From: Aphrocallistes beatrix
Taxonomy: Eukaryota > Porifera > Hexactinellida > Sceptrulophora > Aphrocallistidae
Assembly (NCBI GenBank): GCA_963281255.1
Contig: OY725489.1
Coordinates: 5,394,523 to 5,458,522, forward strand
DNA: 64,000 nt
Reading direction: 5' to 3'
Below, in pieces: positions 50,374 through 63,298 of the stretch. Position numbers and translations under genes: made by a program. Each line of letters starts with the position of its first letter. The first letter of the stretch is position 1. The notes below the pieces were generated by a model. That model did no database searches, had not been told where the DNA came from, and worked only from the letters and a program-made list of their open reading frames with translations.

Positions 50374-50799
50374 TGAATGTATAGTTGCATTGTACTTAAC
50401 AATCTGAAGCTCAGTTTGAATAATGGAGACTATTCAACTGTTAGCTCGCAATATGAATAATTCTATTGATTAACCCACGCTTGCCACAGGAATGTGTTGC
50501 GTCATTTCCGGTTTAAGCCATTTTCAATGGGGAAGCCATGCAAAATTGGGGTTACTACTATAAATAGAAAAATCCCGAATGCTTTCAAGGGTTAATCACA
50601 TTGGAAATCTACATTGTGTTAGAGAGATGCTTCAAAGATTGATCTTGATGACATGAAAAACTAAATTTCTTTTGACTGTGACAATGAGCATTCTTGAGCA
50701 TCTAAAATGTAAAACTAGGCAAAAGAGACGCCCCAAGGGCGGCACATGCGGACACTTTGTGTCCGCAGCCGCGTAGCGCAAGCAAGCGAAGCGAGCTTG
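50374..50799 (+). mobile_element. Helitron-tailed repeat D2, copy with TTAA MITE insertion
   Basis: Homologous to 47449-47750 on both sides of the 50474-50591 insertion. It ends AAGCAAGCGAAGCGAGCTTG|T. Confidence 0.75.
50474..50591 (+). mobile_element. TTAA MITE, copy 2 (118 bp), with known empty site
   Basis: CCCACGCTTGCCACAGGAAT … GAATGCTTTCAAGGG, flanked by TTAA at 50470-50473 and 50592-50595. The inverted right end CCCTTGAAAGCATTC resembles piggyBac termini (CCC start). The sister repeat has GATTAATCAC with a single TTAA and no insert. Confidence 0.93.
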
Positions 50800-51417
50800 T
50801 ACACATTATCTAGACAAGTAATTAATTAAAGAAGGATCGTAATTAATTAAAGAAGGATGTAAACATCCAGGATTTCATATATATGCTGCTCCTTTATCCA
50901 AGGGTACAGTCTATTTCTAGGAACGTCCCCCCCCAACAAAAATTTTTGCACGGTATTGGATACAAAATCTTCTCACGTGAAATCCAAAACATATATTTGT
51001 TAATTAAATAACAATTCAGAATGTGTGAATTGAAAATATCATATTCACACATGATGATTCATAGGATTTATATAATATCAATGACGAGCAAAAAGCATTC
51101 ATCAATAAGAAATCGATCATAATTTCTGAATTGCAACCAATCCCGGATGAAAATGTCCCGGGATCCCGGGATTGAAAGCCCTATATGTTATATATGTTCG
51201 AATATAAAGATAATAAGGTTCATCGAATTTTAGAAATATAACACGGAAAATCAATGAAAGTTTTTAAATTATATTATCCGACAGTAATTTTACATGTTTT
51301 TCGTCTATAGGTGCTTTCAAATTTTTTTTTACCCAAGAAATATTATCTATTTTATTACGCAACACTAATTCAAAAATGCAATATAATTTGAATTAATCTA
51401 CTAGAACAGCAGAAAAC
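50800..51417. other. No recognised gene
   Basis: Contains an ATTAATTAAAGAAGGAT duplication (50818-50850) and a GTCCCGGGATCCCGGGATTG palindrome (51154-51173). It is upstream of the piggyBac relic and may hold its terminal region. Confidence 0.45.
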
Positions 51418-53030
51418 AGATACAAATATCCGTTAACACTCATTGAATTAGAAGCATTTAGCTGATTAATTATTTTGAGTGGTTTTTAATCGTGAACCGA
51501 TATCCAATCTTTATTGTAGTGATCCTAATTTAGCCCGTCACATTTTTAAGGCCACTATGCCGAGAGACCGTTTTAAAGTCATCCTCCAATACCTTCGTTT
51601 CGATGATTTCAGGACTAGATTAGACAGAATAAAGACTGATCGCCTAGCACCTATTAGAGAAGTTTTTGATTTAATCAACAACGCATTTTAAGTTCGTATA
51701 ACCCGAACACCTATCTAACGATTGATGAACATCTCTGTAAATACAGGGGACGCTGTCCTTTCCTCCAATATATCCCTTCCAAACCCCATCGTTATGGAAT
51801 TAAAATGTTCATACTTGCAGATTCTCTCAATTTCTATCCTAAAAACGTTGAAATATATACTGGTAGAACTACGCAAGGCAATTCACCACAGGAAATGGTA
51901 TTAAGAGTCTCTTCAAATATCCCCAAAGGCCACGTACTTGTTGGCGATAATTATCACACAACCTTAAGTTTGTCTAACCAACTTCTTGAGCGAGGAATCA
52001 GATACTTCGGGACAGAAAAGATCGAAGGGAGATCCCCAAAATAATGAAAGAAATAAAAAGTATTCCCCAATATTCTTCAAAATTTCTCTTTAATAATCAA
52101 GCTACTATGGTGTCTTATATCACCAAAAGGAATACAAATGTAATCCTTTTGTCAACTTACCATCACGATAAAAGCTTATCAGATACAGTTAAAAGTAAGC
52201 CCAATATTATCATTGATTATAATAATTATAAATCAGGTGTTGACATTTTAGATATGTTGCTGCTTGCCAATAGCCATATCAGGCAACCCGAAGATGGCCT
52301 TGCGTCGTATTCTATGATTTAATTGGACTAGCATTATAAGTGGTCCTATGTCATGTATTCGCTTAAATATCCGAATTCAACACTTGTAATAAATAAGAAG
52401 AGGAGAATGTTCATCTATGAATTAGCGAAAGAGTTAATTGCACCACATGAAAATGAGGCAATCTTCAAAAAATTATAAATATTTACATAGAGACGCCAAA
52501 GATTCAATAGATTATATCCTTTCACATGTAAATGAAGAGTGCTTGCTCTCTCAATGTAATCAAAGTAAATCTGTTGATGTCAACGTAGATCAGGTTTCGG
52601 CAAGTTTAGATCAAATAGTACCCACTGTAGAGGATGGACAAGTTGTATATTCAGAAGTGAGAAGATCTCAACTGATAGTATCCATTGTAGAATCTGAACA
52701 AGTCGTAAATTCAGAAGTGAGAAGTTCTCAACTGATAGTACCAATTGTAGAATCTGAACAAGCCGTAAATTCGGAAGTGAGAAGATCTCAACAAATATTA
52801 GCCTCTAAAGACGCTATTATTCCAGTGATAGGTAATCAGAAATTACTTGCTGCTGAATCCAGTCAGCAACATTTAAAGTCTCAAAAGAAAGGAAGATGTT
52901 GTATGTGTATACGGACTAAAAAGGATCCGAAAGTACGATCCACTCATTCTGTGAGAAATATATATGTCGCTCCCACTCGAAACTAATAACTATGTGTATT
53001 CAATGTCAAGATAAAATATCTATTTCCTAG
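51418..53030 (+). pseudogene. piggyBac transposase pseudogene (second copy)
   Basis: Plus strand. YPLTLIELEAF near 51430 leads, after a shift, to FNREPISNLYCSDPNLARHI and MPRDRFKVILQYLRFDD. The first Asp is in YLTIDEHLCKYRGRC (about 51712) and the second in VLVGDNYHTT. The third is in YNNYKSGVDILDM (52215-52255). A linker has three imperfect ~29-residue repeats (SEVRRSQ…VESEQ, 52640-52790). The C-terminal finger starts GRCCMC and continues, one base shifted, through FCEKYICRSH to CIQCQ, stop at 53030. Frameshifts or stops occur near 51470, 51690, 52040, 52320 and 52950. All three catalytic Asp survive. It is clearly diverged from the copy at 13335-17506, so two piggyBac lineages are present. 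Confidence 0.9.
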
Positions 53031-54019
53031 TAGCAAAAGATGTTTATGTCTCTAGCCTATAGATTCAGCGATCTTTTTACTTTATTTTTTTACCCCAACG
53101 AATTTATTAATGGTTATTTTAGTCCATTAGATAGCTCGATATTTTTGATGATTTTATATATCATCATTTTTTGATGATTTTTATGTATCATCATCTTGAA
53201 TTAACCAATATAATTTAAGGTGAGACTAATCTCAAAAATCAATATTATAGTAGCGTTAATTGAATGGTACAAAATCATTACTCTATACTAATAAGTACAC
53301 ACATAAAACGTGCGAGAGTATACTGCTCCTATGCATAGTTTTACTATGAATCCATACTTAGTATGATCCATATCAATTACAGCCACAACTTATGTTGAGC
53401 ATAACTCAACTTCAGTACTACATAGAGTCAAAATCAAAATTGCGTTATGAAGCATATTCAATAAGGAACATATTGGCTAGATTATAATGTTTTTAAAAGT
53501 GATATATATATATTTTTAATTTTTGAAATTATTTTGTCAACTCGTTGCAGCGGATTTTTTTTAATATTGTTAAGTTAATTAGAAATATTTGATCATTAAA
53601 TAAACGATCAGCATACCTTTTAAATTGTTCAAGTAACAATACCATCCATTATAAAACAAAGAGCTAAGCTCTATCTCTACTACAACCTTATAACTCTGTG
53701 ACATAATGTAACTCAGTCGTAAAGTTTCCTAAAAGATATTCCCAAATTAAATATAGAAGTGTGGTGGAACAGATATATCGTTTTTATTTAATATAAAAAG
53801 TAAAACAGAAATATACTTCCAACCGGAAGGTGAAAATATGAATAAATAGTATAGTTTATGAAAAAATGGATATACTCCCCCCTTATGAAAAAAAATCCCT
53901 GTAAAAGTTATTAGATAGGTGAATAAATGCCTACAAAATGGGTATATGCATACATTACACAACATTCACGGTAATATAACGTATAATTATTAATACAAAG
54001 GAATGTAAAGAATACAAGT
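53031..54019. other. AT-rich, no recognised gene
   Basis: Includes TTTGATGATTTTATATATCATCA hairpin-like words near 53140-53210. No protein motif is seen in the short frames. Confidence 0.5.
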
Positions 54020-54435
54020 CATTTCGCATCTAAACCATTTCGTACTCTTTCCATTTCGTACTTAATTGCAATTTCGTACTCATTACAATTTCGTACTCAT
54101 TACAATTTCGTTCCTAACACAATTTCGTATTTATAAAAACACAATTTAAAGCACAATTTCGTATTTCAACTTTGGCGACGCTATCAGGACAAGGAGATCT
54201 CCACGTCCCAGTTACTAAGAGCAGTTAGCCACCTGAACGGACCTATTTCAGAATAGATAGTTTTTTGTTTTAGTTTACAATGAATACTTTTTTTGACCTA
54301 TTTCATATTGAATACCTTAATCTGAAAGAGTATGGGTACGAAAGAGTATTGGGTACGAAAGTGTATTGGGTACGAAAGTGTATTGGGCACGAAGTTGTCA
54401 TAATTAAGGTACGAAAGAGTGTTGGGTACGAAGTG
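54020..54435. repeat. Opposed GTACGAAA arrays
   Basis: Left, 54030-54160: about six TTTCGTACTCATTACAA-type units (17-20 bp). Right, 54325-54435: about six GGTACGAAAGTGTATTG units, the reverse complement. The arrays face each other across 160 bp and stop 20 bases before the end of the Mutator-like gene. They may be that transposon's terminal/subterminal binding region or an independent palindromic MITE. Confidence 0.8.
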
Positions 54436-54454
54436 ACCGATACCCATAAAAAAC

Positions 54455-57400
54455 CTAATCTAGACATTTTGGACAATACCAATCATCATCACTATCAAAT
54501 TCCGAAATACCAACACATACATAATGAATCCATAGATCACACAAATCACATTGAATCCAATTCAAACTTACCAATTGGTGTTTCTTCTATCTCGTCTTCA
54601 CTTGTCAACTCCATTTCATCGCAGACACCACATTTGACAAGCTCAATGTTGACATCTACCTCTAGGGCTTGTGGCTGAGGAAGCTTGGGATTCATAACAG
54701 GACTACCAAACTCCAAATCCTCAATGGTACTTGGTGCAAGGATCGATGTTAGAACCTGCAAACTTCCCAGAATCATAGCCTGCACCGTGCTTCTTTACCT
54801 TTCTGGACTCCTTACTCCTCCTTGCCTGTTGGTCAAAAAACCTTTGTAGTTGCCTCTCTTTAGTAGTGTAGCTGCGCTGTACTCTCCTATCATCTAGCTC
54901 GGCAATCAGCTCTTCTAGTGCAGCACTTCTTTCAAGCCCTAAAATATCAAATACACGGAACAATTCGGAAAACCCCCCCATTGTATCTAATCACAGCTAA
55001 AGCACTACCCAACCGCATTGTGGTATAGCTGATCGCATTTGTTTTGGGAACCATTGTAAATAAGATGTTATGAAGGGCCTCGTTATGGTTTGATGTCTGC
55101 CCATCCGCTATTTGTTCGATAAAAAATGGCTTGTCGTAATTATAACGATCAAAAACTTCCTTTACTAAATTTACAACCTCTGGCCCAAGGTAATTTGGGT
55201 GCCTAGGCGGATCGACACCTTGGGCCACTGCAGCTTGGTACTTACACCAAGAATCAGCTCCAAGCGGACATTTATTGTGTGCAATGGCTGCTGTTTCATC
55301 TGTGGCGCTGTCATGATATGGAATAGCAAGGATGGTTTGCAGAAAAGATTAGATCGGTACGCGCTTTGTGATATTTTACAGCCATTTGATACATATAAGT
55401 AATACGAGCACACATGACATCTGTAAGGAATTTCATTTGAATTAATTTGTGTGAAGGATTATCCCATTGACCCCATGGCATATTATGCCGTGTAAGTTTC
55501 CCTCTATATTCTGCATCAACTACGGCCTTACTCGCACCTGCGCTAACCTTTGCTGCTTTGTCACTCCTGGCCAACCTAAGTTTGGATTTTTGGTGTTCAA
55601 TTAAATGGCCCTTCATGCGCTTGCAACAATGACTTAGGCACTCAAATCGTTTCATTTCATGCTCTAGGCCAAATCGTTTCATTTCATCCTCTAGGCCTCC
55701 CATACGGATCGACTTTCCTTGACCTTTTCAATGGTCTTATTATCGCCATCGCAAATGACTCCCCTATCAAAACCTTGAGTCAAGATATCGGGGCAGATTT
55801 CGGACTCTAGGGAAACACTTGCAAAATCTCTATAATTTGCCGGGCATTTATTTAAGTGTATTTCGAATTGATTAAGGATACCGCCCTCGAAAAATCTTGC
55901 CTGGCGTAAAAAAAAAATGCAAAATGTTTTATTGCTAATTTCATTGTATTACTGATCGGTCTACCATCTGATAGCACTATTTGGACGGCATTTTTTTTTA
56001 TTTTTTGCGAAATAACCCCCTAAAGTTTAGCGTTAATAAAAATTGAAAAATTATTAGAGGATTTTAACTCATTTACCAATTAGTTTTTAACTTAATTGAT
56101 ATTTTTTTAATGATATGAACCTTCTAATTGTATTAGCACCTTTGGAGATTATAAAACACAAAGATTTAAAAGAATGGGCAAATAAAATCCAAACAAAATA
56201 GCTCTATAAGGGTGTTCATTTATATAATCCTCGGGAAATCGCAAGTTTGATCACAGATATTAAGCGATCACTGGGTCAGAAATAAAATTCTGATCGTTTC
56301 AAAAAAAATTTGTTCGGATCCGACCATTTGTTCTTAAGATATCGCATATTATAGGTAAAGTTCGGCCATAATATCCCTCTAAGGTCCCGATTGAGGCTGA
56401 TGTCATATCTTAAAAACTATTGTAGATATATAATATATTATATCCTTAAATAAAAAGATATATGCGAAAATATATAGGTTCCTCGAACATTCCTTTGTCA
56501 AAAAATAAATAATTCTCGACTTAATTGTAATACAAATTCTATGGAGAACTTTGAATCTATTAGAAAATGGCGAATCTAATCATTAAATATGTGTCCAAAT
56601 TTAGCTATTATGCTAAATAGTGAATACAATTGCCGTTAATAATGTGTACAGAAAAATTGGAGAACTTTTGATAATTATTTTGAAAGTTCTGGCCTTGGAC
56701 CGCGCAGATTCGGTCAAAAACCCCCATTTAGGGTCCAAAAAGAGATATCTCTCTATCTTTGTAAATACAAGTCCAAATTCTTAGTTCTCACTTCCTAATA
56801 TACTTTTTACGAGTGTACATATATGATTCTTTGTAATAATTGCACTACACCCTATGGAATGTTAAGTTTTAGATTTTTGTCATATGATGACGTAGCATTT
56901 TTCCAAAATCCTAACTTCGAAACTAAAAGTCGTAGACTTTCGCTCTAACTTCCTAATATACTTTTTGGAAGCTTTTTATTCATTCTAAACTGATAGATTA
57001 TACTTCGCAGTGCCAGGAATATGAAATATTATCTACAATTATCTCAAAATATTCGGAGTTAGGGGCCTCAAGGAAATTTGTGGATTTTCAGGGTACTTTT
57101 GCTATTTTTGGTAAATATTTGGCTTTAATATACCTAAATCAGCAGTATGGATGCGAATAAATGTCTGTGGATGCTTATGTGCATTATTAATAACTCATTT
57201 TACATTCTTCTTAACACCTAAACTTAAAATCTCTATATCTCGGGACTTTAAAATTTCAAAATTGACCGTCTTTACAGAATTATTTCTCAAATTTGGTCTG
57301 AGATAGAAGTTTGGAAATTTCAAGAGTTGTTTCATATCATTAGGCGATGAACGTAGGACCACCATTTTTTGGATATATTCTAACTCGGTGATTTTATTCA

Positions 57401-59129
57401 TGATTTCCCCAAAAAAACAGACATTTTTGGCCCTTTTTTTTCTGACACCGATAAAATTTACAATATTTGTCATTTTAACTTTCTTCTGGTCCTATGAAGT
57501 TGCAAATATGGTAGAGTATCTATGATTCGATTTTGGAAGCGTTTGATTCCTTGGTATGTCCTAAACAATTCATTGAGTGCCTAAATTTTTGACTTTGAGA
57601 CACTGTATCTCAAAATCTAGAAATGAGAATCAAAAACGGTTTGGAATGTGCCAGTATTTCTTGATGGAGATACCTCCCCACGCTTAACATCTCTTATAGC
57701 TCTACTTTCATCGTATGCTGTAATGCAAATCATATGTTTTTTCGAGGGCGGTATCCTTAAGATGTTCAACAGCAGTTAATTTTCCCTCCTTAAGTTGATG
57801 ACGCATTTCAGCACATTTTGGACAAGAGTTACAGGCCACATCATAGCCCACTACTTACCTGGCCTGTACTCATGTCAATGATGGAAACAAAACAGAATCG
57901 GGAAAAACCTCCTCCCATTTTGCTCGACCGTTTTTGGTATGCACCATCATATGATACAATGATGTGCACCATAACATCTGGCATAAGACCATTCAATTCT
58001 CTCAGTTGGACTATGGCCTTTTGCATAGATTCGTTGGCAATATGTTCTACTGCGACCAAAAGATCTCGGTTGGTTTTACTAAAATTTGTATAGGAAAGAG
58101 GTCTTCCGATTCTCAGTGTACAAAAAATGAAGTCTAGACCCCTCTTACCGATACCAGCAAGTCTAGCTCCCAGGACAGCTTGGTAGACACTATCATTACG
58201 TTTTGAAACTGAAAAACTGCCAACAGATATTTGACTACTAAACTCCCTGATACTGACCAATAATCCGTTCGTTGTAACAAAGCAGTAATCGCAGCGCAAT
58301 TTCAAAAACAAACCAAAGCCATGGACAGCAGATGTTCGATACAGTTTGACAGGTCCATGATGGAAAAATTTACACTGAAGAGATTTGCTAAACATCAACT
58401 CTAATATCGCAACATCAATTACGATTCGCTCATTGCCTATAGTCGACAAATTGACAGATTTTTCAGTGTGGGTCTTATTATCTAAGACAGTAAGAAATTT
58501 ACTACAAGGCGGCTTTTTGGGTGGCTTTGTTGGCAATGTACATCCCGAACTAGCACTGAATTGTATAGTAGAGGAAGGTTCGGTGAATAAATCAGAATTA
58601 TTTGGATCATTTAGAGAATTGTCGCTAAATGAAACTGACAGTGGAGTAGATGGAATAATATCGATGGTAGGTTCGGGGACAATAACATCCTCAGATGGCA
58701 TATTGGGAAACTTTTTAGATCGTTTTTGATACAATCCTCCATAACCTCTCTCGCCTTATAACAAAACCTTCGCTTTCGGGAACCAAAAAAAGCGCCGTTT
58801 AGGTTTAAAAGTTGATGAATGAACTGGCTTGGAATATAAATCAAAATCAGAAATACATTGTGATAAACGGTAGAAAATGAAACGCACTCACCAAACGAAG
58901 ATTCCTGAGAAATATTCGCAGGTCTCTGAGAACTAGGTTGCTTTTCCTCTTCTACACTTTCATCATAAGCCTTATCTGTAACAGCAGGCACATTAATAAC
59001 ATCAACCACATCAATGACATCAGTCGCATCGATAACAGCAGCCGCATCATTATCAGGATTTTCATCACCAATACTGGATGATCCCTCATATTCCGGATCC
59101 TTTTAAGGATCGTAAGTAGGATCAGACAT
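54455..59129 (-). pseudogene. Mutator-like transposase with C-terminal PHD finger, split by a TTAA element
   Basis: Minus strand. The ATG at 59129 (MSDPTYDP) is followed at codon 9 by a TAA, then an acidic N-terminus. A donor-like TTTGGTGAGTGC near 58890 suggests a short intron. The long frame 58734-57841 carries ERIVIDVAILELMF, a Cys pair, and VHIIVSYDGAYQKR with the first catalytic-type Asp. A 4-base shift leads to VGYDVACNSCPKC. The TTAA element (55876-57756) then interrupts. The reading resumes with FEIHLNKCPANY, VICDGDNKTIEKV and FECLSHCCKRMKG, then CPLGADSWCKYQ, NEALHNILFTMVPKT and LGLERSAALEEL. It ends in a C4HC3 PHD finger (CGVC … CDLC … HYVC … WYCPKC), stop at 54455. The order matches animal Mutator-like transposases. 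Five or more lesions make it inactive, but codons remain well preserved. Confidence 0.9.
55876..57756 (-). mobile_element. 1.88-kb TTAA-flanked transposon, non-coding (copy 2)
   Basis: The ends GGATACCGCCCTCGAAAAAT and the inverted GGATACCGCCCTCGAAAAAA are flanked by TTAA (55872-55875, 57757-57760). It is inserted in the Mutator-like pseudogene in the opposite orientation to copy 1 (39946-41874). Deleting the element and one TTAA rejoins the host codons in frame (…AVEH-LNQFEI…), so the insertion interrupted a readable gene. No long frame is present. Confidence 0.92.
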
Positions 59130-59375
59130 CGGATTTAGAGATAAACACAAATATTCTCAAAACTAAATTTAGAGACCTCACACATAGTAAGCTGTATCAA
59201 TTAGACAATACATAGTACACACTATTTTGATAACTCAAATCTAAACATGGGGACCACACAAAGAGCGAAAACTTGGAAATGCAAATATGCGCGTGTGCAT
59301 TTTGTAAAATTATTCCATATAAATTAGATAGTTGTATACTATACTTTTTTTCATATTTACTTATTTTCACGTGAC

Positions 59376-59764
59376 ATGAAGCGGCAATTTCGTGAGGCAT
59401 TCTCCGAGGAACTTTCTTCTTCGCCGATACCACCGATGAAGTGGACCAAGGTCGAACCCAGGTGGCTCAAGAAGCGGGAAATGTGGCCATGGGAGCGACC
59501 TCCCCCTCCTCCTCCTGTCACGATAGAATGTCCCCATCTTCTAGCTCACCTGAGCATGAGACGGAGGAGGAAGTTGAAGTTTTGGTCCTCGTATATCCAG
59601 GACCAAAATGGGTCGTTGGGCCGTCAAAGTGCAGGAGAGCTTATTTTGGAGAAGGGAAGCTCCATATTATAGGATCGACCCTAGATTTAATTATATTCCC
59701 CCATCATCTCCTTTATCCCTCTTTTAATAAAGTAAGTTGCGTGGCTGTGGTGACCACACTATGA
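59376..59764 (+). other. Coding-like GC-richer segment, unrecognised
   Basis: Two overlapping plus-strand frames are open. One (ATG 59376) gives MKRQFREAFSEELSSSPIPP and a Pro run. The other (from 59441) gives an acidic Ser-rich stretch and YPGPKWVVGP. GC content is higher than the surroundings. It lies just upstream of and divergent from the Mutator-like gene, so it could be a second protein of that transposon or a gene exon. No family is recognised. Confidence 0.3.
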
Positions 59765-61152
59765 CGGACGCAAGTCCCGACCTTTAGGTCACCGCATCCG
59801 TATATGTTTTGTAGTTGTAACGGTAATTGTATATTTACCGTCCATACTGACACTGTATGCTGATGAAGCTAGTAAGCAGAAACGGTAATAATAAAAGAAA
59901 TGAGATTGATTTGTAATAATTAGGTTCAAAACTGAATTTAAAATATTTTCAAGCTTACTATATGTTTCCATTACTACGCACTATGGTGGCCACTCAGAAT
60001 AAATTTTCAAATCAGTTCAAATACATTCGTAATCATCATTGGAATCTCCAGCTTTTTGATGGGTTATATTGATCATATTTAAATAGCTAAAATTTACTTA
60101 TCGTAGCAACCACAAAGAATGTTACACCATTCAGATTATCATATTTCGGAATAACTATGCCATGTGACCCCTTTTTCTCCGCGACTAACTACTCTGAGTA
60201 CGAATACGATAATATAAATAGCATAAAATGTTGTTTGGAGAATATATGAGGGAATTTTAAATATATTATTCAAAAAATGATTTCTTATCATTTTCACACC
60301 TAAGAATCAGTAGAAATGCATAAAATGATGTCACATTTATTGTCTATTGATAATTTATCACAATAAAACAACTAAATTTAACTACTATTAAAAGAAAAAA
60401 AATTTTTTGAAATTTTTGTACAAAATTATAAAATGACGTCATCTTTGAAGCCATAAATCGCATGAATAATGGAAATTTTTCTTAAAAACTTACAGATAAG
60501 CTAGTTCGGATATCAGACTATAGAAATATATCAATTTAAAACAAATCTAATATTCATCCCAAATTTCCAATTTTGAGATTAGCCTCACCTTGAGCGTTCC
60601 TAGGGAATTTTCAATTATTTTCAAAGATTAGACTAGATAGAAGTTATAGGCTCTATTGACCAACCAGAGGATCCACCAATCACTGTATTTTCCATCATGG
60701 TATCTAGTCTCGTAACTAAGTTCTCTACCATTGTACAGCTAGTTCCTCTTGGTCCTAGCTCTGCTGTAGTTCTGTTTCCAATAGTTTCTAAGACAATTTC
60801 GGACATAGAAAGTTGTAATTTATACGATGATTCTGTGTGTACAGATAATCACCCACGTCACCTTTTTCCACAAATAAAAAATACTGCTTCCAAAAGTCAC
60901 AATACACTTCAAACTATGTAATCGATATTACAAAAATTATATATGATAAAGGCCGTCGGAAGTTCACAAAAAGTAGTTAGGTCATTGTCGCTTTTGATTA
61001 AAAGTGGTTAGAATCCACATTATAGTCCATACAATAACAAAGTTTATATAAAAAGTGGTAAGGCCTTTCCAGCACCGCTTCATACGGCAATGTGATATAG
61101 TAGTATTTATTAATTTGACAGCCGAAAAAAACTTTTTGAGAATTTTTATTCT
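59765..61152. other. No gene; one partial dispersed repeat
   Basis: A diverged copy of the GTGACCCCTT/TACGAATACG repeat lies at 60080-60240. A short frame at 60697 lacks motifs. Confidence 0.5.
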
Positions 61153-61160
61153 GGTTCACC

Positions 61161-62716
61161 TAGGGTTGCCAGACGTCCGGGTTTGACCCGGACAGTCGTC
61201 CGGGAATGGGATGAATTTGTCCGGGTTTGGAGATTTTTGAGTCCTGTCCGACTACTCACTACTCAGGACTGTCAATATATTCTATCCGTATCTAAGTTAT
61301 TTAGTTAGCTATTGCTCTGCTGCAAACGTGTCACTCTCTAATATTCGAAGAAAGAGTGCAAGTTTGTGAAATTTGGATTATTACTGATTTGTAATGCTAC
61401 CATAGTGTACGTATACTACTGAGTACTGACCCTAACTGCCTAACATGTTTCGTAATGAGTATACTTGGAATCTTCTTTTTGTTTCTGTGTTCAATGGCTT
61501 CAACGATGAATAATGATATGTAGATATGTAGTCACGTGGGTCAAGGGTCATTTTATGTGTCTTTGCAGCTCTGGTTTACAGTGAATTACCTACATTCAAA
61601 TTGTTATTTCAAATTTTATTCTCTGAGATTTTAGTTTACCCGCAATAACTAATAGACGAAATATCTTATATATTAAAATGCTAGGATTTGTTTGTTTGTT
61701 TGTATGTCCGAATTGATTGAAGAATTGGCAAGTCGTAGAGATACGAAAAATGGCATGTAGGTGTCAAATGATGAATCTAGGATTAAGTTCGAAAAGCTAA
61801 GCGAAATTTTCACACCTCTGCAAAAAAAATAGAAAACAATTTTTCACACCTTTTCTATACAATACTATGACACTATTGTAGGCTGTCATTGTTATTAATT
61901 AATACTTCAAAGTAAAAAAGGGTATTTGTATATTTTCACACCATTATATACATATTTTCACACGATTTGACGAATTTTGAAAATTATGCTAGAGACTAGC
62001 TTCCAACGGTTGACAAGGGGTTTTTAGGGGTGTAGATTTCGAATATCATATTTTCAGATCGATATGATGAATTATTTGTTTACTTTTGTTTACAATAGAT
62101 ACATAAAGTAAACAAATTACAAAAATAAGCTAGAGACTTGCTTCCAACGGTTGACATGGGGTTTTCAGATGTGTAGATTTCGAATATAATATTTTCGAGT
62201 AAGTTTGATAATTAATTTGTTTACTTTTGTTTACAATAGATACATAAAGTAAACAAATCTCAAAAATATGTTAGAAACTTGCTTTCAACGGTTGTCAGGA
62301 GTGTAGATTTCGAATATCATATTTTCGGATCCATATGAAGAATTAATCGTTGACCTATGTTTACAATATATATATAAAGGAAAAAATTTCCAAAAATTGT
62401 TTAGATTGAGTAACTCCAGGCGCCCGCAGGGCGACTCTGTGGACACTAAGTGTCCGCAAGCCGCGCAGCGCAAGCAAGCGAAGCGCGCTTGTAATTTATA
62501 ATTTCTCTTGATTATAGATGTATTCTGTATATTTTTACCGTATACGTATTATCGAATAGTAACGCCCCTCGAAATATAATAAGCTAATCAGGGGTAGCCA
62601 CAATAATATTTTGTATTAATCGAAGACTGAACTGCAGTAACAGATAGTACATACGGTTAAATTTTTAGAGAATAAATTATGTACGGATTTGGCCTTTTGA
62701 AAATCTGGCAACCCTA
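61161..62716. mobile_element. hAT element with perfect 8-bp duplication, split by a Helitron
   Basis: The ends TAGGGTTGCCAGA and TCTGGCAACCCTA are perfect 13-bp inverted repeats of hAT type, flanked by GGTTCACC (61153-61160 and 62717-62724). Without the internal Helitron (61664-62491) the element is 728 bp. The left subterminal region repeats GTCCGGG words. No transposase remains. Confidence 0.95.
61664..62491 (+). mobile_element. Non-autonomous Helitron, family A (828 bp)
   Basis: A|TCTTATATATTAAAATGCTAG, TTTGTTTGTTTGTATG and CCGAATTGATTGAAGAATTGG at the left. It has two to three satellite monomers in the middle and the tail AGCAAGCGAAGCGCGCTTG|T. It is inserted inside the hAT element. Confidence 0.9.
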
Positions 62717-62761
62717 GGTTCACCCCGTACAAAACTTGTTCATTTGGCTTATATAAAAACA

Positions 62762-63298
62762 CAAGCGCGCTTCGCTTGCTTGCGTTGCGCGGCTGGCGGA
62801 CACTTTGTGTCCGCCGGAGGCTCCCTTCGGTCGCCTGGTATGAAATTGGTTAATTATAAGGGAGATATCATCTCTAAATATGTCCATCTTAGTTTTACAA
62901 TCAATATCACTCGAAAAATCACAAATTTGTCAATTTTTAAAATTTTGATGAGTAATGATGACGTCATAACAAAGTGATGAGTCATCATTTTTTGATGATA
63001 GGTCCATCATATGTGAGACGTGTTTGTATACAGATTCTATTAATTTCAGCCTTCTATCCCCTATAATGGCTGAGTTATGCTCGAATAATTGTGTTGCTTA
63101 ACTTTTAAAAATGTGACAATGATGTCATAATTCCATGATGAGTTGACATTTTGCTCTGAGCTCAGAACTTACTGGAGCCATAGCCAAAAGAATCCCACAT
63201 GCCAAAAATCAGCTTTCTACGCCTGGCAGTTTCTTCAATCAATTCGTACAGATATATATATATATATATAAACATTAATCGAGTTTTAATAGTAAGGA
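62762..63298 (-). mobile_element. Helitron family B, complete, minus orientation (537 bp)
   Basis: It starts A|CAAGCGCGCTTCGCTTGC and ends ATCGAGTTTTAATAGTAAGGA|T, with a TA run just inside the 5' end. It keeps ATGACGTCATAAC and GATGAGTCATCATT; the other CRE is TGATGTCA. Confidence 0.88.

Follow-up and report, generated by a model that had tools for sequence, protein, structure and literature searches.

The DNA analyzed here, a 64,000-nt stretch of contig OY725489.1 from the hexactinellid sponge Aphrocallistes beatrix (the window), carries the dead remains of a DNA transposon that probably belongs to the Kolobok superfamily. Transposases of its lineage end in a PHD finger resembling those that read histone H3 trimethylated at lysine 4 (H3K4me3). 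The whole element occupies positions 53219-60589, and its decayed transposase gene runs on the minus strand from ~59128 to 54455 (Table 1).

A split PHD finger closes a decayed transposase gene

An initial annotation of the window had placed here a gene (54455-59129) for a 'Mutator-like' transposase with a C-terminal C4HC3 PHD finger, broken by one shift of frame. The outline of the gene held, but the copy is a pseudogene, with a TAA codon at 59103-59105, several frame changes and a nested insertion of 1881 bp. When an intact 902-aa relative was used as tblastn query, its residues 214-405, 442-495, 504-611 and 853-896 (the finger) matched the window at 58431-57856, 55858-55712, 55661-55350 and 54583-54458, respectively, the pieces falling in successive frames.

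The finger itself was borne out, at minus-strand positions 54632-54464 with one frame change near 54560. The CGVC pair (54632-54621) lies in one frame, and WIQCDLC..HYVC..WYCPKC lies in another from 54562, with the last cysteine codon at 54466-54464. With the finger of locus L040 as query, tblastn gave one match at 54653-54558 (frame -3) and another at 54568-54458 (frame -1); because these two frames adjoin near 54560, a single frame change is indicated there. A mini-intron in place of the frame change (a GTAAGT is present at this point) was set aside, since the finger frame of L040 is uninterrupted. Profile searches confirmed the second part as PHD (PF00628, 32.1 bits; Pfam cut-off, 24 bits), and a scan of the whole genome with PF00628 recovered the window finger at E 3.8e-5. 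An NCBIfam search gave no match.

Transposase and finger share one frame in intact relatives

Intact transposase open reading frames (ORFs) of 902, 892 and 767 aa are present in the same genome. All three hold PF20700 (E 5e-39, 4.3e-40 and 1.8e-56) and PF00628 in one frame, with the finger of the 892-aa protein scoring 23.5 bits, just below the cut-off. The finger is part of the transposase, as first proposed, and the outcome that would have overturned the initial annotation did not arise. The 902-aa family comprises nine loci (L029-L037), seven of which retain the full frame, and is recent, with 99.4-99.9% identity to L030 in the main alignments.

To count the association genome-wide, two lists of transposase matches were merged into 132 loci, the first list coming from a same-genome search with the PF20700 part of the window copy (94 matches), and PF00628 matches within 4 kb on either side were tallied. 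For PF00628, 150 of 324 candidates were scored, and genuine fingers exist outside this list. At least 41 of the 132 loci had a match inside or up to 4 kb downstream on the same strand. Among the matches listed, same-strand ones up to 4 kb upstream were absent from all 132 loci, and a match on the opposite strand occurred at a single locus; hence the link is not due to chance. Nine further C-termini were then chosen, in which an open frame reaches or passes the query end. PF00628 matched every one of them (E 9.5e-4 or better), seven above the cut-off; one of those below it, L074, is decayed. Eight of the nine were absent from the PF00628 genome list. These data indicate that the finger is constitutive in this transposase lineage.

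Some loci stand apart. Locus L075 (G000:C1:8946240-8946560) is the C-terminus of a 1185-aa open frame, the longest of its list, with the PHD intact, and is a candidate domesticated or extended transposase. At L038 (G000:C14:653000-662999), which holds the 892-aa ORF, the frame ahead of the likely start Met reads ..LLIIGGIELNPGP-P.., which we take to be a 2A-like ribosome-skipping motif. Loci L004-L008 (contigs C19, C6, C10, C14 and C2) form a separate repeat family with a 60-aa ORF (from Met) encoding half a PHD finger; this half finger, VACSECKSWYHVHC..WLCEEC, is near-identical at the five loci, one of which has a stop inside it.

Invariant residues of the finger include a predicted H3K4me3 cage

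Ten divergent fingers (pairwise identity 21-53%) were aligned, leaving out near-identical and damaged copies. Exactly ten columns are invariant. Eight hold the zinc ligands, and the other two are tryptophans, W30 and W39. W30 lies three residues before the third zinc ligand, and W39 two before the histidine. Both are also kept in the window finger, aligned with tryptophans of KDM5A and KDM5B. Among solved structures, phmmer ranked as closest to the 902-aa finger KDM5B PHD3 (1.3e-6), KDM5A PHD3 (2.3e-6), CXXC1 (1.6e-5) and BPTF (2.3e-5); in both PHD3 fingers, the two tryptophans align with W30 and W39. For the window half-finger, TAF3 came first (4.2e-6), followed by PHF23, KDM5A, UHRF1 and KDM5B. 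The trimethyllysine (H3K4me3) cage of KDM5A PHD3 is described as consisting of two tryptophans alone (PMC9814790). Neither tryptophan occurs in three PHDs found in long or host-like frames of the same genome (L001-L003). Judged by its homologs, the finger likely binds H3K4me3. The initial annotation had also raised a chromatin role; H3-reader relatives and the invariant cage tryptophans speak for contact with histones, while a part in targeting is something we continue to infer.

The main rival, which we consider unlikely, is that the C-terminal finger binds transposon-end DNA in the manner of the piggyBac cysteine-rich domain (CRD) and has no histone role. The two systems are alike in having a C-terminal PHD-like or cross-brace zinc finger in a TTAA-linked superfamily. 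The location is the same, C-terminal to the DDE domain of a TTAA transposase, and the piggyBac CRD, PHD-like in fold, binds a motif that recurs within the ends of its transposon (PMC8086355). Tandem repeats near an element end, seen both in the window and in copies of the 902-aa family, would be possible binding sites, and one finger (L076) is basic, with an isoelectric point (pI) of 8.25. Yet the other nine of the ten fingers are acidic (pI 4.05-5.65), so a basic histone tail is expected as partner rather than DNA, and the only invariant residues besides the ligands are the cage tryptophans. The best solved relatives are histone-reading fingers, with no piggyBac chain among the phmmer matches listed or the first 50 Foldseek matches. 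As to differences, the piggyBac CRD binds terminal DNA and that of PiggyMac (Pgm) has another fold (PMC8086355).

A second alternative, improbable to about the same degree, is that the finger reads a different H3 state (unmodified K4, or methylated K9 or K27) or has another partner. The PHD of UHRF1 is a reader of unmodified H3, and UHRF1 is among the phmmer matches of both the 902-aa and the window fingers; the list of relatives is therefore of mixed specificity. The CRD of Tpb2 prefers H3K9me3/K27me3 and that of Pgm binds H3 weakly and independently of methylation; their zinc arrangement is also different (PMC8086355, PMC3861120). Since these ciliate piggyBac-derived domains differ in H3 preference, a specific mark cannot be presumed. 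What favors H3K4me3 over this alternative is that the two-tryptophan arrangement of KDM5A PHD3 is conserved here.

It is very improbable that the finger is a captured host exon, hitch-hiking with no function in transposition. Transposons do capture host sequence, and many copies of the element are dead. But the finger stands at the C-terminus of all three intact ORFs and of the nine further C-termini, and its ligands and cage are conserved across ten divergent fingers, which argues against this explanation because drift would lose them.

Ends, duplications and motifs point to Kolobok

An inverted repeat pair (53217-53246 and 60562-60591) delimits the element in the window, giving a terminal inverted repeat (TIR) of ~30 bp. 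The TIR 19-mer occurs at 33 genome places with up to two mismatches, versus 5 for the reversed control. TTAA stands directly before 22 of the 23 exact copies; before the remaining one, the window's own right end, the tetramer is TCAA. For a test of the duplication, we took ten inverted TIR pairs, which span 189 bp to 5.2 kb, together with 25 bp of sequence beyond each end. The flanks were TTAA/TTAA in nine pairs and TTAA/ATAA in the tenth, with no longer duplication, and the nine flanking bases were unequal between sides in all ten. Because the flanks match over 4 bp and never over 9, the duplication of the window family is the 4-bp TTAA. Copies sharing the TIR are scattered over many contigs.

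In the 902-aa family, both ends were found at seven of the nine loci. Four of them carry the same 4 bp on either side, TTAA in two cases and TAAA in two. The flanks differ at a single base in L032 (GTTA/TTTA) and in L033 (TTTA/TTAA); L037, with TCAC/TTTA, has a 5' end without its first base or bases, and L035 and L036 each lack one recognisable end. A long TIR was not found in L029-L037. A tandem unit of ~143 bp lies at the 5' end of this family, in varying copy number.

The transposase was compared in an alignment of the three full-length proteins and one partial fourth. D375, DGD (483-485) and C511xxH514 are invariant, as is, in all four rows, a CCHC finger (C415, C418, H442, C446) after the first Asp. 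The three full-length rows share TxNxNE (TSNHNE/TSNLNE/TQNANE; E702 in the 902-aa protein) and, read by eye between CxxH and E, an HxxC(7)C motif, with the subsequent H absent in one of them.

Superfamily assignment was made from published criteria for ends, duplication and motifs. For Kolobok, these are a 4-bp TTAA duplication, RR..YY termini, DDE with CxxH, and a zinc motif between CxxH and E; a CCHC finger follows the first D in KolobokP, E, D and Kolobok5 (PMC9587614). The TTAA, the RR..YY termini, the DDE with CxxH and the CCHC finger are common to Kolobok and the present lineage, the termini reading GGTGAG..CTCACC in the window family and GGGTCC..GATCC in the 902-aa family. Accessory proteins listed for Kolobok are DnaQ, lambda exonuclease-like, His-Me finger, RecQ and KolX, and the string 'PHD' is absent from the text of that paper (PMC9587614); a PHD fused to the transposase C-terminus is where the present lineage differs. 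That this is Kolobok with a constitutive PHD finger we regard as very likely.

Other classes fit less well. The 'Mutator-like' label of the initial annotation rested on the Pfam name of PF20700, whose profile does match the window and the intact ORFs. Mutator-like elements (MULEs), however, make duplications of 8-11 bp (PMC6446971) and usually have long TIRs, in contrast to the 4-bp TTAA and the ~30-bp TIR of the window element. TTAA, GG..CC ends, CxxH and CCHC together indicate Kolobok, neither MULE nor Rehavkus, and the label is not supported. The intact ORFs match no piggyBac Pfam family. Sola2, with 4-bp AT-rich duplications (PMC3627910), was set aside by description, the TTAA specificity, CxxH and CCHC fitting Kolobok better. 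Rehavkus, an already described PHD-bearing Mutator relative with a minisatellite before its 3' TIR, came to mind for the PHD finger of the transposase and the 17-bp tandem repeats on the 3' side of the window element, but is barely credible and was dropped, its duplications being 9 bp (PMC6446971) and those here TTAA, with four of seven 902-aa copies likewise having identical 4-bp flanks. Tandem arrays lie on the 3' side in the window (17-bp units) and at the 5' end in the 902-aa family (~143-bp units).

We found no report of a PHD in a Kolobok transposase in the open literature searched, although Repbase entries could already mention one, and an arthropod MULE paper (PMC13359780) contains 'PHD' zero times. 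A PHD-bearing Kolobok variant is probably unreported.

Observations on the other side

Several results weigh against the conclusions drawn above. Split by list, the association is uneven, with PF00628 at at least 37 of 85 loci from the PF20700-part search and at least 6 of 58 in the second list; the low second figure is explained by the scoring of 150 of the 324 candidates. The transposase loci are clustered, 56 of the 132 lying on contig C2 (7.6% of the genome) at ~1.96-6.63 Mb. C2 may be a transposon sink, for example a sex chromosome or heterochromatin. Open frames around the 902-aa copies are a mixture of transposon and host-like fragments (by eye, in a few copies), and TAAA as well as TTAA serves this family as a duplication. 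Viral and prokaryote contig collections gave 43 and 25 matching stretches, none of which was confirmed as a relative.

The THAP domain is 'usually' present in Kolobok transposases according to work on Xenopus (PMC6004289), and no THAP match at E<=0.1 was seen in the three intact ORFs. As the superfamily-wide Kolobok paper (PMC9587614) mentions THAP zero times, we did not treat it as defining. Its lack nevertheless lowers, slightly, our estimate for Kolobok with a constitutive PHD.

Among damaged fingers outside the ten-finger alignment, L017 has its second tryptophan replaced by Gly (DLGYH). The finger is also interrupted in L012/L043 and L013/L044, in both cases ahead of the third ligand, and in L014/L045. 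Selection was gauged from ten comparisons of nonsynonymous and synonymous rates (dN/dS). Five close finger pairs gave 0.33-0.55, on 3-14 changes only in a short domain; one further pair gave 0.14 at saturated dS, one had a single change, and two were saturated. For one pair the body of the transposase was compared as well, with a ratio of 0.58. These ratios carry little information on selection.

Structural models add similar reservations. For the finger model (predicted local distance difference test, pLDDT, 67.9), the first Foldseek neighbors were structures of TAF3 and BPTF, a number of them complexes with H3K4me3 or an analogue; no match reached E<=0.001, and BAZ2A/B and UHRF1, which read unmodified H3, appear among the neighbors too. 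For the full 902-aa model (pLDDT 46.6), the only PDB matches at E<=0.001 were two chains of the ISCth4 transposase (best 2.5e-4); Hermes and RAG1 appeared lower, not significant and among unrelated proteins. ISCth4 presumably belongs to the IS256 family, related to MULEs, so that this best neighbor of a weak model would be a further likeness to Mutator-like elements. The match is consistent with an RNase H-fold transposase, no more.

Features of the element and its surroundings

Coordinates are collected in Table 1. The nested 1881-bp element, with its GG..CC ends, is possibly a non-autonomous Kolobok. Its 19-bp TIR occurs at 1288 genome places (632+656 with at most one mismatch, against 0 for the reversed control). 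The first 100 listed all lie on contig C1, and many of these ends are paired ~1.9 kb apart. Adjoining the main element, piggyBac-like transposase fragments were recognised by eye at 51670-52986. At 62441-62812, 57-bp inverted repeats flank 258 bp, and a related copy lies at 50766-50801; they resemble a short inverted-repeat element, and 141-bp tandem repeats occupy 61973-62384.

Table 1. Features of the transposon copy and its nested insertion, in window coordinates
Feature	Position	Strand	Basis
TTAA, left target-site duplication	53215..53218	.	same tetramer precedes 22/23 exact TIR copies genome-wide
TIR GGTGAGACTAATCTCAAAA, element 3' end relative to gene	53219..53237	+	inverted-repeat search
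17-bp tandem repeats, 5.5 copies, within element, downstream of gene	54037..54129	.	
17-bp (34-bp) tandem repeats directly after stop codon	54324..54432	.	
Second PHD part (both cage Trp, zinc ligands 3 to 8) and stop codon	54455..54562	-	PF00628, E 1.2e-7
ORF with first PHD cysteine pair (CGVC)	54546..54794	-	tblastn with L040 PHD (54653-54558, frame -3)
Transposase C-terminal region ahead of finger	54721..54990	-	902-aa residues 737-809 match 54975-54757
Transposase fragment with TSNHNE (third catalytic acidic residue)	54947..55348	-	902-aa residues 608-739 match 55363-54965, 46% identity
Transposase fragment with ECLSH (CxxH) motif	55311..55727	-	ORF list, tblastn
Transposase fragment with DGD (second catalytic Asp), resuming past nested insertion	55691..55948	-	ORF list, tblastn
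Nested 1881-bp element, TIR GGATACCGCCCTCGAAAAA, TTAA on both sides, splitting the transposase gene	55876..57756	.	inverted-repeat search
Fragment with CNSCPKC, first half of CCHC finger after first catalytic Asp	57762..57887	-	L040 protein 475-516, frame -3, tblastn
PF20700 part with first catalytic Asp (SYDGAYQKR)	57841..58755	-	PF20700, E 8.6e-15
TIR GGTGAGGCTAATCTCAAAA, element 5' end relative to gene	60571..60589	-	inverted-repeat search
TTGA, right duplication copy, one mismatch to TTAA	60590..60593	.	

A possible route from histone mark to transposition

The scheme we propose draws on homology for its first step and on analogy for its second. The finger would bind the H3 tail, most likely H3K4me3. 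With the enzyme on the transposon ends, the PHD would tether the transposase to active chromatin, lift an inhibited state, or both. Excision and TTAA insertion would thereby occur where H3K4me3 is present. A chromatin-targeting role is plausible from the sequence evidence; as to whether the PHD affects target choice or activity, we hold the chances to be even.

This scheme would parallel that of RAG1/RAG2, with recombinase and reader in one polypeptide. Binding of H3K4me3 by the RAG2 PHD relieves autoinhibition and is thought to aid recruitment of the complex (PMC6510410). In both, a DDE recombinase is paired with an H3K4me3-reading PHD, the reader being a predicted one here. They differ in that the RAG PHD sits on a separate protein, RAG2, in a system of Transib descent, whereas the finger described here is part of the transposase chain, and the superfamily is a different one. 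The fullest form of the proposal, which we put forward tentatively and rate a little short of even, is that an old Kolobok lineage has kept an in-chain H3K4me3 reader through deep divergence, that this reader steers or switches on transposition, and that it is an independent invention of the RAG1/RAG2 kind.

Implications

Little is settled about how DNA transposons select their target sites in chromatin. A conserved cage of the H3K4me3 type inside a transposase lets this be addressed directly by point mutation. For annotation, these results mean that the Pfam label 'Mutator' can conceal Kolobok-like elements. That intact relatives keep the finger and its two cage residues suggests that these transposons may sense active chromatin. 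If true, this would be a second DDE recombinase tied to H3K4me3, beside RAG1/RAG2, and a possible source of chromatin-guided insertion tools.

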